DNA of 32,474 nucleotides, taken from Candidatus Arcticimaribacter sp. Its GTDB lineage: Bacteria; Bacteroidota; Bacteroidia; Flavobacteriales; Flavobacteriaceae. This document shows, in pieces, positions 10,050-18,829 of the stretch. Where the stretch lies: the NCBI GenBank assembly GCA_011526285.1, contig WTJU01000068.1, forward strand, positions 1 to 32,474, given 5' to 3'. The translations under genes and the position numbers were made by a program. The notes under the pieces were generated by a model. The model was not told the origin of the DNA, made no database searches, and worked only from the letters and a program-made list of their open reading frames with translations. The stretch's first letter is position 1. Each line of letters starts with the position of its first letter.

Positions 10050-10385
10050 ATGAAAAAATCCTATTATCAACCAGAAGACCTAAAAAAATTCAGTGCTATT
10101 ACAGAGTGGAATGAAACACTGGGAAAAAAGTTTTTTGACTACTACGCAGAGGTCTTTAAAGACGGTCATTTAAGTGCCCGAGAAAAGTCATTAATAGCAC
10201 TAGCAGTTTCGCATGTTGTTCAATGCCCCTATTGTATTGATGCCTACACAAAAGACGGTCTTGAAAAAGGCATTGAAAAAGAAGAAATGATGGAAGCTGT
10301 TCACGTTGGCGCAGCGATAAAAAGTGGAGCAGCACTAGTCCATGGGGTACAAATGATGAATCGTCACGACCAACTAAGCATGTAA
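10050..10385 (+). CDS. Arsenosugar biosynthesis-associated peroxidase-like protein (AhpD/carboxymuconolactone decarboxylase fold)
   Basis: SAREKSLIALAVSHVVQCPYCIDAYTKDGLEKGIEKEEMMEAVHVGAAIKSGAALVHG: CxxC AhpD-like core; directly upstream of arsS. Confidence 0.85.
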   Translation: MKKSYYQPEDLKKFSAITEWNETLGKKFFDYYAEVFKDGHLSAREKSLIALAVSHVVQCPYCIDAYTKDGLEKGIEKEEMMEAVHVGAAIKSGAALVHGVQMMNRHDQLSM

Positions 10386-10387
10386 TC

Positions 10388-11446
10388 ATGACCAAAAAAT
10401 CATTAAAAGCACGTGCAAGTAAACTATCTGACACGCAACACCAACTTGATTATTTATCAAATGGAATTTTTAAAGACGGTAGCCTCCCAACTTTCAAAGA
10501 AAAGCTAACACACTATGGGTTAGCGGAAATTCAGCCCAAAAAACTAAGCATTCTTCAAATAAATATTGGGTACATGTGCAATCAAGTTTGCGCACATTGC
10601 CACGTTGACGCTGGTCCAGATCGGAAAGAAATGATGGATCAAGTCACCTTGGAAGCTTGTCTTAAAGTAATGCGAGAAAATCAAGTTGAAACTGTTGATT
10701 TGACAGGGGGAGCCCCAGAAATGCATCCGCAATTTAGGTGGTTTGTAGCGCAAATACGTTCAACCACCACGGTAAAAGAAATAATTGTTCGCTCAAACTT
10801 GACCATAATCATGGCCAACAAAAAATACCATGATTTACCCACTTTTTTCAAGAATAATAACGTACATGTTATTTCATCACTTCCCTTTTATAAACGAAAT
10901 AAAACAGACAGACAACGAGGTTCTGGAGTGTTCGATCAATCCATTGCAGCTTTAAATAAACTTAATGAGGTAGGCTACGGAAAAAGCGATACAGCTTTAG
11001 AATTAGATCTGGTGTATAATCCATCTGGAGCCTTTTTACCTGGCGACCAAGCAGCACTTGAAAGCGATTTTAAACAAGCGCTAAAAGAAGATTTTGATAT
11101 AGATTTCAATCAATTGTTCACCATTACCAACCTACCCATTAGTCGATTTTTAGATTACCTCATCGCTTCAGAAAATTATGAAGAATACATGCACACCTTG
11201 GTAGATGCATTCAACCCTTCTGCTGCACAAAATGTTATGTGCACCAATACTCTTTCGGTAAGCTGGGAAGGTTATCTGTACGACTGTGACTTTAATCAAA
11301 TGCTAGGCCTTAAAGTTAAAGGAGGGAAAGACCACATTAGAGACTTTAATCTTGAAACCCTTCAAAAAAGAGAGATTCAGCTTTCTCAACATTGCTATGG
11401 CTGTACCGCAGGAGCGGGAAGCAGCTGTCAAGGTAGTATTGCATAA
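10388..11446 (+). CDS. arsS: Arsenosugar biosynthesis radical SAM protein ArsS
   Basis: CX3CX2C cluster motif MCNQVCAHCHVDAGPDR; VDLTGGAPEMHP; C-terminal HCYGCTAGAGSSCQG typical of the DUF3641 domain. Confidence 0.93.
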   Translation: MTKKSLKARASKLSDTQHQLDYLSNGIFKDGSLPTFKEKLTHYGLAEIQPKKLSILQINIGYMCNQVCAHCHVDAGPDRKEMMDQVTLEACLKVMRENQVETVDLTGGAPEMHPQFRWFVAQIRSTTTVKEIIVRSNLTIIMANKKYHDLPTFFKNNNVHVISSLPFYKRNKTDRQRGSGVFDQSIAALNKLNEVGYGKSDTALELDLVYNPSGAFLPGDQAALESDFKQALKEDFDIDFNQLFTITNLPISRFLDYLIASENYEEYMHTLVDAFNPSAAQNVMCTNTLSVSWEGYLYDCDFNQMLGLKVKGGKDHIRDFNLETLQKREIQLSQHCYGCTAGAGSSCQGSIA

Positions 11447-11452
11447 GTCACT

Positions 11453-12052
11453 ATGGCACAAAACCTATTACTCGTTTTTTGTAAAAATCCTCAATTAGGA
11501 AAGGTGAAAACGCGCTTGGCCAATGGTATTGGCGATAAAAATGCTTTAAAGATCTACCAAAGACTTTTAGAAAAAACAGCGGCTGTTTTAGCGCAATTAA
11601 ACTGTGATATTACAATATATTATTCACAGTCGATTATTGATGATGATGTGTTTAGCGCAACAGCCAAAGAGAAAAAAGTACAATACGGGGAAGACTTGGG
11701 AGCACGCATGGCAAATGCGTTTCAAAATGGCTTAGACACCCATGAAAAGGTAGTAATAATAGGTACAGATCTATGGACACTTGAAGCACAGGACATTGAA
11801 AAAGCGTTCGCTGCTCTGGAAAACTTTACCGCTGTACTCGGTCCGTCTCAAGACGGTGGTTACTATCTTTTAGGTTTAACTCGTTTTATCCCTGAATTAT
11901 TTCAGAAAAAAGCCTGGGGAACAGATGAAGTATTGTCAAAAACAAAAACCAATCTAAAGGCAGAAAAATTATTTTTATTGTCCGAAAAAAATGACATTGA
12001 CACCCTTGACGATTTAAAACAACATCCTGATTTAGCACTATGCATACATTAA
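11453..12052 (+). CDS. TIGR04282/DUF2064 family arsenosugar biosynthesis glycosyltransferase (nucleotidyltransferase-like fold)
   Basis: LLVFCKNPQLGKVKTRLA, GTDLWTL, VLGPSQDGGYYLLGL: characteristic DUF2064 motifs. Confidence 0.88.
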   Translation: MAQNLLLVFCKNPQLGKVKTRLANGIGDKNALKIYQRLLEKTAAVLAQLNCDITIYYSQSIIDDDVFSATAKEKKVQYGEDLGARMANAFQNGLDTHEKVVIIGTDLWTLEAQDIEKAFAALENFTAVLGPSQDGGYYLLGLTRFIPELFQKKAWGTDEVLSKTKTNLKAEKLFLLSEKNDIDTLDDLKQHPDLALCIH

Positions 12053-12864
12053 AACAACAAATAGATGAAAGTCAAGCTTTCCTGAATTCCAAAGGAATTG
12101 ATTCTATTGATTTTGGAATTATTTTAGGCACAGGCTTAGGCGATTTAGTGAACGAACTAGACGTTGAACAAGAAATTCCCTATGCTGCTATTCCTCATTT
12201 TCCCAATACGACCATGGAATTTCATCATGCTCGATTACTCTATGGGAATTTATGTGGGAAAAAAGTTTTGGTCTTTGAAGGACGTTTCCACGCCTACGAG
12301 GGTTTGAGTTATTTTCAAATAACCTACCCCATTCGCTTAATGCACAGTGTGGGAATTAAAAAAGTAATCATTAGTAATGCTGCAGGCGCAATTAACTTGA
12401 ATTTTAAAAAGGGAGAAGTAATGCTCATCGAAGACCACATTAATCTTCAAGGGGGATCGCCCTTAGCAGAAAAAGGTGTAGAGACTTTAGGCCCTCGTTT
12501 TGTAGACATGAGTGCACCTTACGCTAGCACTTTGTGCAAGCGTGTCAAAGAAATTGCTGCCAACAATGACATTACACTTCATGCGGGAGTTTATGCGGCT
12601 GTTGTTGGACCACAACTTGAAACCAAAGCAGAATATCGTTATTTGAGACAAATTGGGGCAGATGCTGTAGGAATGTCTACCGTACCAGAGGTTATTGTTG
12701 CCAATCAACTCAACATGGACTGTATCGCCTTTTCAGTGCTTACAGATGAGTGTGACCCCGCTAATTTAAAACCCATTGACATTGAAGACATCATGGCTTC
12801 TGCCAAAAAAGCGGAACAGTCTTTGATTATTTTAGTAAAAAACCTACTTTCTTCACAACAATAA
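12040..12864 (+). CDS. Purine nucleoside phosphorylase, trimeric PNP/MTAP family
   Basis: [72 protein letters not shown]; overlaps upstream gene by 13 nt. Confidence 0.93.
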   Translation: [274 protein letters not shown]

Positions 12865-12871
12865 AAAAACG

Positions 12872-13840
12872 ATGAATTACCTAGAAGTCACCAAAGATGT
12901 TTATAAAGAAGCAGCCTTAACTCCAGATGTGGGCTTGTGTTGTACCACAACTCCCATTTGGCAATTCCCAGGCTTATCCATCCCAACCATCATGCAAGAA
13001 ATGAACTACGGTTGTGGATCTACAGTTCACCCAAGAGATTTGATCAATAACCCAAAAATACTTTATGTTGGCGTAGGTGGCGGCATGGAGTTATTGCAGT
13101 TCGCTTATTTTTCCCGTCAAAAAGAAGGTGTAATTGGGGTTGATGTTGTTGACGAAATGCTTGAAGCGTCGCGTAAAAACTTTAAAGAAGCCGAAGAACA
13201 AAACGACTGGTTTCAGTCAGAATATGTCACGCTAAAAAAGGGAGATGCCTTGCAGTTGCCCGTTGAAGATGAAAGTATTGATGTTGCTGCACAAAACTGC
13301 TTATTCAATATTTTTAAAGTTGAAGAACTAAAAAAAGCACTAAAAGAGATGTATAGGGTACTTAAACCTCACGGACGTTTGGTGATGAGTGACCCCATCT
13401 GTGAGCAACCCATGAACGACACCCTTAGAGCAGATGAAAGACTTCGCGCACTTTGCCTTTCAGGTTCAATTCCGCTAAATGAATACATAAAGCTTTTAAC
13501 TGACGTTGGTTTTGGCACCATTGAAGTTCGTGCAAAACGTCCGTATCGATTACTCTCCCCTGAACATTATCCTACAAACGAACTAATTTACATTGAAAGT
13601 GTAGAGGTGTGTGCGATAAAAGACCCGATGCCTAGTGACGGTCCTTGTGTTTTTACAGGGAAGACCGCTATCTATTTTGGTAACGATGATTTTTTTGATG
13701 ATAAAAAAGGACATGTTCTACTCCAAAACCAACCTTTAGCTGTTTGCGATAAAACTGCGGCTGCTTTAGCTGAACTTAATCGAAAAGACTTATACATAAC
13801 TGGTTCTACCTATCATTATGATGGTGGTGGCTGTTGCTAA
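12872..13840 (+). CDS. arsM: Arsenosugar biosynthesis arsenite methyltransferase ArsM-like
   Basis: SAM-binding ILYVGVGGGMELLQFA, AQNCLFNIF, MYRVLKPHGRLVMSDPICEQP, RALCLSGSIPL; Cys-rich GLCC, MNYGCGS and C-terminal GGGCC; located in the arsS operon. Confidence 0.9.
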   Translation: MNYLEVTKDVYKEAALTPDVGLCCTTTPIWQFPGLSIPTIMQEMNYGCGSTVHPRDLINNPKILYVGVGGGMELLQFAYFSRQKEGVIGVDVVDEMLEASRKNFKEAEEQNDWFQSEYVTLKKGDALQLPVEDESIDVAAQNCLFNIFKVEELKKALKEMYRVLKPHGRLVMSDPICEQPMNDTLRADERLRALCLSGSIPLNEYIKLLTDVGFGTIEVRAKRPYRLLSPEHYPTNELIYIESVEVCAIKDPMPSDGPCVFTGKTAIYFGNDDFFDDKKGHVLLQNQPLAVCDKTAAALAELNRKDLYITGSTYHYDGGGCC

Positions 13841-13851
13841 ATCAATTTCCC

Positions 13852-14550
13852 ATGCGCTTACTTTTATTCCTTCTCTTACTTTGTTTTAATGGCACGTTAA
13901 CAGCTCAAAAATCTATTCACTCGCTTTGGAGCACTGCGCTCAAAGAACATGTAGATGAAGCGGGACACGTTAATTATGCTAAATGGAAAGAAGACACCAC
14001 CCTGTTAGACGATTACATTACCAGTTTAGAAGAAAATCCTCCTGCTGAGTTTTGGAGTAGAAACGATTCTCTGGCCTATTTTATTAATGCCTACAATGCG
14101 GTTACTGTTAAACTAATTCTAGATCACTATCCGTTAAAAAGCATACGAAAGTTAATAACCCCTTGGCGTTTTAAACGCTTTGAATTAGAGGGAGAAAAAA
14201 TTTCCCTCAACCATATTGAACATCAAATCTTGCGTAAAATGAATGAACCACGAATTCATTTTGCCATAAACTGTGCTTCTGCTTCGTGTCCAAAATTATT
14301 CAATACTGCTTTTTATGCGCATACTATGGAAGAACAACTTGAAGAGGCAACTACGCTATTCATAAATGACCCATTGCGCAATCAATTAAGTAAAAAAGAA
14401 ATGGCAATTTCTCGAATTTTTCAGTGGTTTGCGAGCGACTTTGGCACTAAAAAAGAGCGACATGCTTTCGTTCGGAAATACGCCACACAACCGATAGATA
14501 AAAACGCAAAAGTTCGTTTTCTGAACTATGACTGGCAACTCAACGAATAA
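13852..14550 (+). CDS. DUF547 domain-containing exported protein
   Basis: Signal peptide MRLLLFLLLLCFNGTLTAQ; VNYAKWK, YFINAYNAVTVKLIL, HFAINCASASCPKL motifs; track start at 13834 is a TTG codon, ATG at 13852 preferred. Confidence 0.85.
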   Translation: MRLLLFLLLLCFNGTLTAQKSIHSLWSTALKEHVDEAGHVNYAKWKEDTTLLDDYITSLEENPPAEFWSRNDSLAYFINAYNAVTVKLILDHYPLKSIRKLITPWRFKRFELEGEKISLNHIEHQILRKMNEPRIHFAINCASASCPKLFNTAFYAHTMEEQLEEATTLFINDPLRNQLSKKEMAISRIFQWFASDFGTKKERHAFVRKYATQPIDKNAKVRFLNYDWQLNE

Positions 14551-16031: not shown

Positions 16032-17330
16032 ATGTCCCCTCCTCCAATCATTATTATTGGCAATGGAATTGCTGGCACTACCTTGGCAAGACAATTGCGA
16101 AAAAGAAGCCAACAACCCATACTAATCATATCAAAAGAAAGTGATTACTTTTTTTCACGTACAGCCTTAATGTACGTGTATATGGGGCACCTAAGTTGGG
16201 ATCAATTGGAACCTTACGAACAGGGATTCTGGAAAAAAAACAAAATCGATTTACTGCGAGCAGAAATCACTAGCATTCAGCAAAATGAAAAAACGATAGT
16301 GTTGAGCAATGGCGAACGTTTGGCCTATGATCGCTTGGTTCTTGCAACGGGTTCAACACCTAACAGGTTTGGATGGAAAGGGCAGGAACTAAAAGGTGTT
16401 CAAGGCTTATACACTAAACAAGACCTAGAGCAACTTGAAGCGATGACACCAAGAATAAAACGCGCGGTAATTGTAGGTGGAGGACTCATAGGAATTGAAT
16501 TGGCAGAAATGCTTCATTCCCGCGGAATTGAAGTGACCTTTTTAGTACGTGAAAAAAATTTCTGGAATACAGTCATCTCAGCCACAGAAGGTAGCATGAT
16601 TGAACAGCATATTGTTGAACATGGCATCAATTTGAAAACCAGCACTAGTTTAGTTGAAATATGTGGAGATGAAGAAGGGAACGCAGTAGCTGTGGTTACT
16701 GATAAAGGTGAAAAAATTCCATGTGAATTTGTAGGGCTAACCGCTGGAGTACGACCAAATATTGATTTTCTTAAAGGGAGTGACTTGAACATAAATCGCG
16801 GAATTTTGGTAGATGATTTCTTACAAACCAACTTAACTGATGTGTATGCTATTGGAGATTGTGCAGAGTTACGCCAACCAAAAAGTAATCGTCGTGCCAT
16901 TGAAGCAGTGTGGTATGTTGGACGAATGATGGGAGAAACCTTAGCCCTAACCCTTAGTGGTAAAAAGACAGCCTATCAGCCTAGTCACTGGTTCAACAGT
17001 GCAAAGTTTTTCGATATTGAATATCAAACCTATGGAGTAGTCGCTCCGGAAGAGCATGAGAACGAAGCACATTTTACCTGGCAAGATCCCACAAAACTTC
17101 GCTCTGTCCGATTTTCCTATAACCCCGAGACGGAACGCTTTTTAGGCATCAATAGTTTTGGCATTCGTTTAAGACACGAACGCTTTGAAAAATGGTTGAA
17201 TGATAAGGCGAACATCAACACAGTGATCAAGCAACTTAAAGAAGCGAATTTCGATCCTGAATTTTACACACATTACGAACAAAACATCCAAAACGCATGG
17301 CAAGCACAGCACAATTTAATCAATCTCTAG
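16032..17330 (+). CDS. NAD(P)/FAD-dependent pyridine nucleotide-disulfide oxidoreductase
   Basis: IIIGNGIAGTTLARQL, VLATGSTPNRF, AVIVGGGLIGIELAEML, VYAIGDCAEL motifs. Confidence 0.92.
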   Translation: MSPPPIIIIGNGIAGTTLARQLRKRSQQPILIISKESDYFFSRTALMYVYMGHLSWDQLEPYEQGFWKKNKIDLLRAEITSIQQNEKTIVLSNGERLAYDRLVLATGSTPNRFGWKGQELKGVQGLYTKQDLEQLEAMTPRIKRAVIVGGGLIGIELAEMLHSRGIEVTFLVREKNFWNTVISATEGSMIEQHIVEHGINLKTSTSLVEICGDEEGNAVAVVTDKGEKIPCEFVGLTAGVRPNIDFLKGSDLNINRGILVDDFLQTNLTDVYAIGDCAELRQPKSNRRAIEAVWYVGRMMGETLALTLSGKKTAYQPSHWFNSAKFFDIEYQTYGVVAPEEHENEAHFTWQDPTKLRSVRFSYNPETERFLGINSFGIRLRHERFEKWLNDKANINTVIKQLKEANFDPEFYTHYEQNIQNAWQAQHNLINL

Positions 17331-18829
17331 GCAAGAATAGTGGCTTAGTGCTAGGACTGTTAGGTCTAGCCTTGTTGTTTTTCCCCTTTTTTAATGAAGA
17401 GTTTTCTCATTCGTCATTGGGCCTAATCACAAGCTTATCATTAATTACCCTAGGGACACTACTCTACTCCGATTTTCTTTACCGTGGGCAGCCAGCAGGG
17501 GTAAAAAATAACGGGGTTTGGTTTGATGGGCTCTCCTCACGTGGACTATTGGGATGGTTTGTGGCCTTGGCATTAACAGGTTTTTATATCGCATTGTATT
17601 TTTATCCTGAACGCTTAGGATACAACGCACAAGGAAACACAGCTTTGGTTGCTTTTTTTGATCCGTTGAGCAAATTATTGAATGGCAATGCAGCCACACA
17701 ATGGTTTGTCTACGGCACGCTTTACACCTTGGCCATACTTCTCTTTGGTGTAAAATTTATCTATAAATATCGCCACAATCGTTACCAAATTATACGAACG
17801 GTATCGGTTATGTTTTTCCAATTGGGCTTCGCTTTTCTAATTCCAGAATTGCTTTCCCTTTTTAATCCTGAAACCCCTTACTTCGCTAAAGATTTAAAAA
17901 ACATGTGGCCCTTAAACTACTATTTCTTTGAGTCTTGGCACCTTAAAAACATGTTGAATGGAGGGAATTTAGGGCGCTTTATGCTTTTCTCAGGAATTGC
18001 AATGATCTTCATTGTATCTCCTGTATTAACCTATTTATATGGGAAACGCTGGTATTGTTCTTGGGTGTGTGGTTGCGGTGCTTTGGCAGAAACTGCTGGG
18101 GATCCCTTTAGGCAGCTTTCCAGTAAAAAAATAAGTGTTTGGAAATTTGAGCGATGGTCTATACATGCAGTTCTCGTTTTTGTTTTTTTAACCACTATTG
18201 CAGTAATATGGTCTTTCTTGAGTAGCAATCCTAACTTGAGTAGCTTTTCGCGCGAAACTTTTGTCATTGGCGTAGTTGCTTTTCTTTTGCTACTAATGGG
18301 GCTCATTTACGTTTACAAGCGCAAGGACTTAGATAAAGATGCGCTTTACAGCTTTATATCTATTGGCCTAATAATTATTGGCACCCTCTCCATTCAGGCT
18401 TTTTCAGGAGAAAAACACATTTTATTCATTAAGAGTTATACCCTTACCAAGTGGTATGGTTTCGGAATTGGCGCGGCCTTCTCTGGTGTTCTTGGGGTAG
18501 GATTCTATCCGCTACTAGGAAGTCGTGTGTGGTGTCGCTTTGGTTGTCCAATGGCGGCAATTTTAGGACTGCAACAGCGTTTACTCTCACGTTTTCGCAT
18601 TACCACCAACGGAGGGCAGTGCATTTCTTGTGGGAACTGTTCTGCTTATTGCGAAATGGGAATAGATGTTCGCGCCTATGCACAAAAAGGACAAAACATT
18701 GTCCGTTCTTCTTGCGTTGGTTGTGGCATCTGTTCTGCCGTATGTCCACGGGGAGTACTAAAGCTCGAAAATGGAAGTGTAAACCAACGTACAAATCTTC
18801 CTGAATTTCCACTTGGGAATAGTCTCTAA
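17297..18829 (+). CDS. NapH/NosR-like membrane Fe-S protein with C-terminal 2x[4Fe-4S] ferredoxin domain
   Basis: Multiple hydrophobic helices; WYCSWVCGCGALAE, VWCRFGCPMAAILG; CISCGNCSAYCEMGIDV and CVGCGICSAVCPRGVL ferredoxin motifs; overlaps upstream FAD gene by 34 nt. Confidence 0.9.
   Translation: MASTAQFNQSLGKNSGLVLGLLGLALLFFPFFNEEFSHSSLGLITSLSLITLGTLLYSDFLYRGQPAGVKNNGVWFDGLSSRGLLGWFVALALTGFYIALYFYPERLGYNAQGNTALVAFFDPLSKLLNGNAATQWFVYGTLYTLAILLFGVKFIYKYRHNRYQIIRTVSVMFFQLGFAFLIPELLSLFNPETPYFAKDLKNMWPLNYYFFESWHLKNMLNGGNLGRFMLFSGIAMIFIVSPVLTYLYGKRWYCSWVCGCGALAETAGDPFRQLSSKKISVWKFERWSIHAVLVFVFLTTIAVIWSFLSSNPNLSSFSRETFVIGVVAFLLLLMGLIYVYKRKDLDKDALYSFISIGLIIIGTLSIQAFSGEKHILFIKSYTLTKWYGFGIGAAFSGVLGVGFYPLLGSRVWCRFGCPMAAILGLQQRLLSRFRITTNGGQCISCGNCSAYCEMGIDVRAYAQKGQNIVRSSCVGCGICSAVCPRGVLKLENGSVNQRTNLPEFPLGNSL

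Follow-up and report, generated by a model that had tools for sequence, protein, structure and literature searches.

Why a purine nucleoside phosphorylase (PNP) is encoded in an arsenosugar operon, and which nucleoside it cleaves there, is the question raised by the window, the whole 32,474-nucleotide stretch of DNA from Candidatus Arcticimaribacter sp. (contig WTJU01000068.1) analysed here. Arsenosugars are common marine arsenic compounds, and both ArsM and ArsS have been characterised. To our knowledge, no enzyme has been assigned to the replacement of adenine after ArsS; none is named in the papers found, and a search of the open-access literature found no paper naming a PNP in arsenosugar formation. 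The operon PNP provides a concrete, purifiable candidate for the adenine-removal step.

The operon and its phosphorylase

The cluster is encoded on the forward strand in the order TIGR04169, ArsS, TIGR04282, PNP, AsSugarArsM, DUF547, and TIGR04283. The first gene (10050–10385) codes for an arsenosugar-associated peroxidase-like protein of TIGR04169 (186 bits, cut-off 120) and the second (10388–11446) for ArsS, a radical SAM enzyme recognised by TIGR04167 (445 bits, cut-off 300). They are followed by the gene of the TIGR04282 protein (11453–12052), named a glycosyltransferase in NCBIfam, whose end overlaps the start of the PNP gene (12040–12864) by 13 bases (12040–12052, from the open reading frame coordinates). 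Downstream of the PNP gene lie the genes for the arsenite methyltransferase AsSugarArsM (12872–13840; NF038099, 578 bits, cut-off 400), for a DUF547 protein (13834–14550, with a start possibly at 13852), which neighbourhood comparison identifies as a conserved cluster member, and for a family-2 glycosyltransferase assigned by NCBIfam to TIGR04283 (14528–15238). The DUF547 protein is encoded in 46 of 73 related loci. An FAD/NAD(P) oxidoreductase and a NapH-like 4Fe-4S membrane protein are encoded after the cluster, at 16032–18829, and their counterparts lie beside it in 15/73 and 11/73 related loci, respectively.

The gene at 12040–12864 codes for a protein of 274 amino acids, which is a PNP of the trimeric PNP-I family, belonging to a widespread Bacteroidota subtype termed TDEC. 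It scores above the NCBIfam cut-offs of NF006054 (314 vs. 218 bits) and TIGR01697 (267.5 vs. 197.1 bits), and below that of the inosine/guanosine-specific TIGR01700 (271.9 vs. 293.35 bits). In an alignment, all the phosphate- and ribose-binding residues of trimeric PNP-I enzymes are present (S/T33, R84, H86, Y88, A116, Y192, E201, M219, and S220). The AF2 model (pLDDT 93.8) has the PNP of Spirosoma linguale (PDB 4lna) as its top structural match, and other class I PNPs rank after it. The identification of the protein as a methylthioadenosine phosphorylase (MTAP) was rejected on the basis of its TIGR01694 score (83.2 bits, cut-off 274.85) and the retention of Glu201.

The base and 5' pockets

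The sequences of human PNP and MTAP were matched letter for letter to PDB chains 7zsl and 1cb0, respectively, before being aligned with the window protein. In the multiple alignment Asp236 (codon 12745–12747) falls at Asn243 of human PNP and Asp220 of MTAP, and Glu194 (12619–12621) at human Glu201, both as placed by the initial annotation; the gapless alignment with the human segment described there extends up to and just beyond the Asp residue, where it is broken by a two-residue gap. The window PNP therefore has Asp236 in place of the Asn243 found in trimeric PNPs specific for 6-oxopurines. For the N243D variant of human PNP, activity on adenosine was reported to rise about 5000-fold, and the N256D variant of the Kluyveromyces lactis enzyme prefers adenosine, with a kcat/KM of 2.2e6 for this substrate (PMC5074518). 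Since such Asn-to-Asp mutants gain activity on adenosine, Asp236 predicts adenosine use, which lends support to the earlier statement that a PNP with Asp at this position should accept 6-aminopurine nucleosides. Judging from its residues, the base pocket formed by Glu194 and Asp236 should take 6-aminopurines.

The presence of Asp236 is in itself ordinary. Asp occupies position 243 in 48/48 ArsM-linked and in 74/80 other Bacteroidota PNPs, so the caveat that enzymes of this phylum may share the residue was correct. A Thr-Asp pair is also found at this site in 4lna, in 4m1e from Planctomyces limnophilus, and in 8swt from Bacteroides fragilis. Asp236 was rejected as a pathway marker because of its phylum-wide occurrence, and the suggestion that the residue itself points to arsenosugar formation was not supported.

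The other position of interest is occupied by Ile248 (codon 12781–12783), aligned with His257 of human PNP and Val233 of MTAP. His257 of the human enzyme forms a hydrogen bond with the 5'-hydroxyl of the nucleoside (PMC3214022, PMC12648331). Bacteroidota PNPs are mainly of two types, Asp243/His257 and Asp243/Ile-Val-Leu257, the latter being the TDEC type, which is expected to tolerate 5'-modified nucleosides because the partner of the 5'-hydroxyl is replaced. By the same reasoning, the 5' pocket of the window PNP need not see the 5'-hydroxyl, and 5'-modified nucleosides are expected to be tolerated. The change from His257 to Ile248 is MTAP-like, yet it also defines a widespread PNP subtype. 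A TIGR04282 gene adjoins none of the 27 genes for His257-type PNPs, which are solitary, and 86 of the 115 for the Ile type; this association is confounded by ancestry, since on the tree position 257 requires three changes and the linkage 13. In another Bacteroidota family all 15 genomes sampled encode a TDEC PNP, ten of them together with ArsS and five without it. Ile248 was accordingly rejected as a pathway marker; the three tree steps and the equal presence with and without ArsS indicate that it denotes a subtype.

Gene neighbourhood across genomes

The survey of gene neighbourhoods covered the window's family with 151 genomes, each genus being represented by roughly one. AsSugarArsM is encoded in 88 of them, and in 85 of these 88 the PNP gene lies directly upstream on the same strand, with a median gap of 41 bases. 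ArsS is encoded in 113 genomes, every one of which has a TDEC PNP, some being typed by similarity to the window PNP (54–70% identity) and not by residue 257. The 38 genomes without ArsS comprise 13 with a TDEC PNP, eight with the His257 type, one with an untyped fragment, and 16 with no PNP. The Fisher value for this comparison (2e-19 for 113/113 vs. 13/38) overstates independence, as the genomes are related and share ancestry. Phosphopentomutase DeoB, which bears on the fate of ribose-1-phosphate, is encoded in a single genome of the 151 and is absent from 150; other mutases could serve.

Among 73 loci with extended flanking sequence, a sample in which those lacking ArsM are over-represented, the TIGR04282 gene lies immediately upstream of the PNP gene in 55, as against 24 for ArsM and 35 for the presence of ArsS in the locus, making TIGR04282 at least as close a partner of PNP as ArsM. 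Where the two genes are neighbours, TIGR04282 overlaps the PNP start in 58 of 90 loci, as counted with a simple rule for the choice of start. Two Chitinophagales loci (L343 and L372) and one of Flavobacterium turcicum (L338) also place PNP close to ArsS, but with a different gene arrangement, which suggests that the association is a repeated one. In a further Flavobacteriales locus (L336), ArsS, TIGR04282, and PNP are followed by a second nucleoside-phosphorylase-like gene.

Conserved linkage or co-occurrence with ArsS/ArsM is found in the window's family and is rare in other families. Across the phylum, 5 of 78 ArsS loci contain PNP, all in the window's family, and no nucleoside phosphorylase was found near ArsS in the cyanobacterial, planctomycete, myxobacterial, and Rhodothermia loci sampled. 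Four near-complete genomes (G182, G214, G300, and G322; loci L192, L196, L203, and L200, respectively) contain PNP–TIGR04282 and TIGR04283 without ArsS or AsSugarArsM; these clusters are remnants or variants. The proposal that the PNP gene belongs to the ArsS/ArsM pathway is supported by adjacency, co-occurrence, and the overlap with TIGR04282, and its place in the arsenosugar pathway within the family is well supported.

Proposed late reactions, alternatives, and known systems

The protein encoded by the overlapping gene, named an (arsenosugar) glycosyltransferase, is predicted from its model (pLDDT 96.3) to be a nucleotidyltransferase of the CofC/IspD type. Its first structural match is 3cgx, a structural-genomics entry of putative function (33% identity), after which come FbiD/CofC Rv2983, 3-phosphoglycerate guanylyltransferase, and IspD. 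Asp106, Asp181, and Asp183, candidate metal ligands invariant in 36 TIGR04282 sequences, form a D...DxD pattern corresponding to that of D116, D188, and D190, the three Asp residues that bind Mg in FbiD (PMC8764529), so that the predicted structure combines a CofC-like fold with the metal triad. A weak alignment (E 1.1) with 2i5e, a probable nucleotidyltransferase, likewise places the Asp triads together. The protein is a relative of CofC and not CofC itself, as it matches the CofC model TIGR03552 with an E value of 1.4e-10 and 41.1 bits against a cut-off of 105. Nucleotidyltransferases of the CofC kind would need a substrate that carries a phosphate, for instance a sugar-1-phosphate, and such a compound is the product of a phosphorylase but not of a nucleosidase. 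The presence of a phosphorylase, and not a nucleosidase, beside TIGR04282 would be accounted for in this way, as phosphorolysis would yield a sugar-1-phosphate for the nucleotidyltransferase.

ArsS adenosylates methylated arsenic in oxo-arsenosugar biosynthesis, according to work cited in PMC12159101. The most likely task of PNP in the operon would be the phosphorolysis of the ArsS product, 5'-deoxy-5'-dimethylarsinoyl-adenosine, to adenine and 5-deoxy-5-dimethylarsinoyl-ribose-1-phosphate; the TIGR04282 enzyme would then activate this arsenoribose-1-phosphate, and TIGR04283 would transfer the activated sugar to an acceptor. We infer all the substrates and products of this series, and consider that it has about an even chance of being correct. 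Its more detailed form, in which TIGR04282, then misnamed a glycosyltransferase, would make NDP-arsenoribose from the arsenoribose-1-phosphate released by PNP, and TIGR04283 would use a glycerol-type acceptor, is put forward as a tentative possibility. PNP is the best candidate for the removal of adenine from the arsenical nucleoside because its position in the cluster hardly varies and its gene overlaps that of TIGR04282, a likely sugar-activating enzyme, and the reaction itself is a reasoned prediction. If TIGR04282 is read as a nucleotidyltransferase, the late pathway resolves into three reactions that can each be assayed, which makes the prediction testable. Counted against the pathway reading are the four family genomes that have the module without ArsS, the small share of ArsS loci containing PNP phylum-wide (5/78), the lack of a nucleoside phosphorylase near ArsS in the sampled loci of other phyla, the finding of no PF01048 protein besides the operon PNP in its genus, and the occurrence of TDEC as the sole TIGR01697-type PNP in genomes of the other family that do not encode ArsS.

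A rather unlikely alternative, albeit one of some weight, is that PNP is the purine-salvage enzyme of the cell parked in the operon, where it would at most recycle the adenosine that derives from S-adenosylhomocysteine, a product of ArsM. In the window genome (84.8% complete) and in the same-genus genome G295 (95% complete), no PF01048 protein was found besides the operon PNP, which may therefore also serve purine salvage as a housekeeping enzyme; many genomes, both with and without ArsS, have no TIGR01697-type PNP other than this subtype, and operon and solitary copies are highly similar. The tie of PNP to TIGR04282 is, however, stronger than that to ArsM and is kept where ArsM is missing, solitary His257-type PNPs are never found beside TIGR04282 (0/27), and in two relatives (G228 and G084) a solitary PNP is encoded apart from the operon copy, DeoD being present too in three of the operon-bearing relatives checked. 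The refuting case named in the initial annotation, a sole housekeeping PNP, is half borne out: the window genome and G295 agree with it, and G228 and G084 do not.

It is improbable that PNP acts in the disposal of 5'-deoxyadenosine or 5'-methylthioadenosine (MTA) formed by radical SAM enzymes and in other reactions of SAM, in place of MTA/SAH nucleosidase or MTAP. The resemblance of Asp236 and Ile248 to MTAP would fit this role, as would the lack of MTAP from all 151 family genomes and the distribution of MTA/SAH nucleosidase, encoded in 2/125 genomes with TDEC alone and in 7/8 with the His257 type alone. The nucleosidase is nevertheless rare phylum-wide (7/198), which makes its absence unspecific and weakens it as evidence for MTA use, and disposal leaves the overlap with TIGR04282 unexplained.

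That PNP, TIGR04282, and TIGR04283 constitute a general ribose-activating module, not bound to arsenic and joined by ArsS/ArsM in most lineages, seems distinctly improbable: the four near-complete genomes encoding the module without ArsS or AsSugarArsM speak for it, but every one of the 113 family genomes with ArsS has the PNP subtype and NCBIfam links both TIGR04282 and TIGR04283 to ArsS. Participation of PNP in arsenate reduction through nucleoside arsenolysis, with arsenate replacing phosphate, can hardly be credited, since this reaction, although documented in the literature, is a general property of PNPs and would need neither a pocket tolerant of 6-amino and 5'-modified nucleosides nor TIGR04282.

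Compared with the ArsS/ArsM arsenosugar cluster, the window has TIGR04167, NF038099, TIGR04169, TIGR04282, and TIGR04283, all over their cut-offs, and adds PNP and DUF547, for which there is no NCBIfam arsenosugar model among the matches. The TIGR04282 protein shares its predicted fold and Asp triad pattern with the CofC/FbiD guanylyltransferases, but it is only 16–18% identical to them and stays below the CofC model cut-off. PNP resembles class I PNPs, such as 4lna and human PNP, in fold (TM 0.93 to 4lna), in sequence (50% identity to 4lna), and in its conserved active-site residues. In comparison with human PNP, Asn243 is replaced by Asp and His257 by Ile, both kinds of change being common to other Bacteroidota PNPs (4lna has Asp and Leu). 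With MTAP the window PNP shares Asp at position 243/220 and hydrophobic residues at the positions of V233, V236, and L237, but it keeps Glu201, where MTAP has Ser178.
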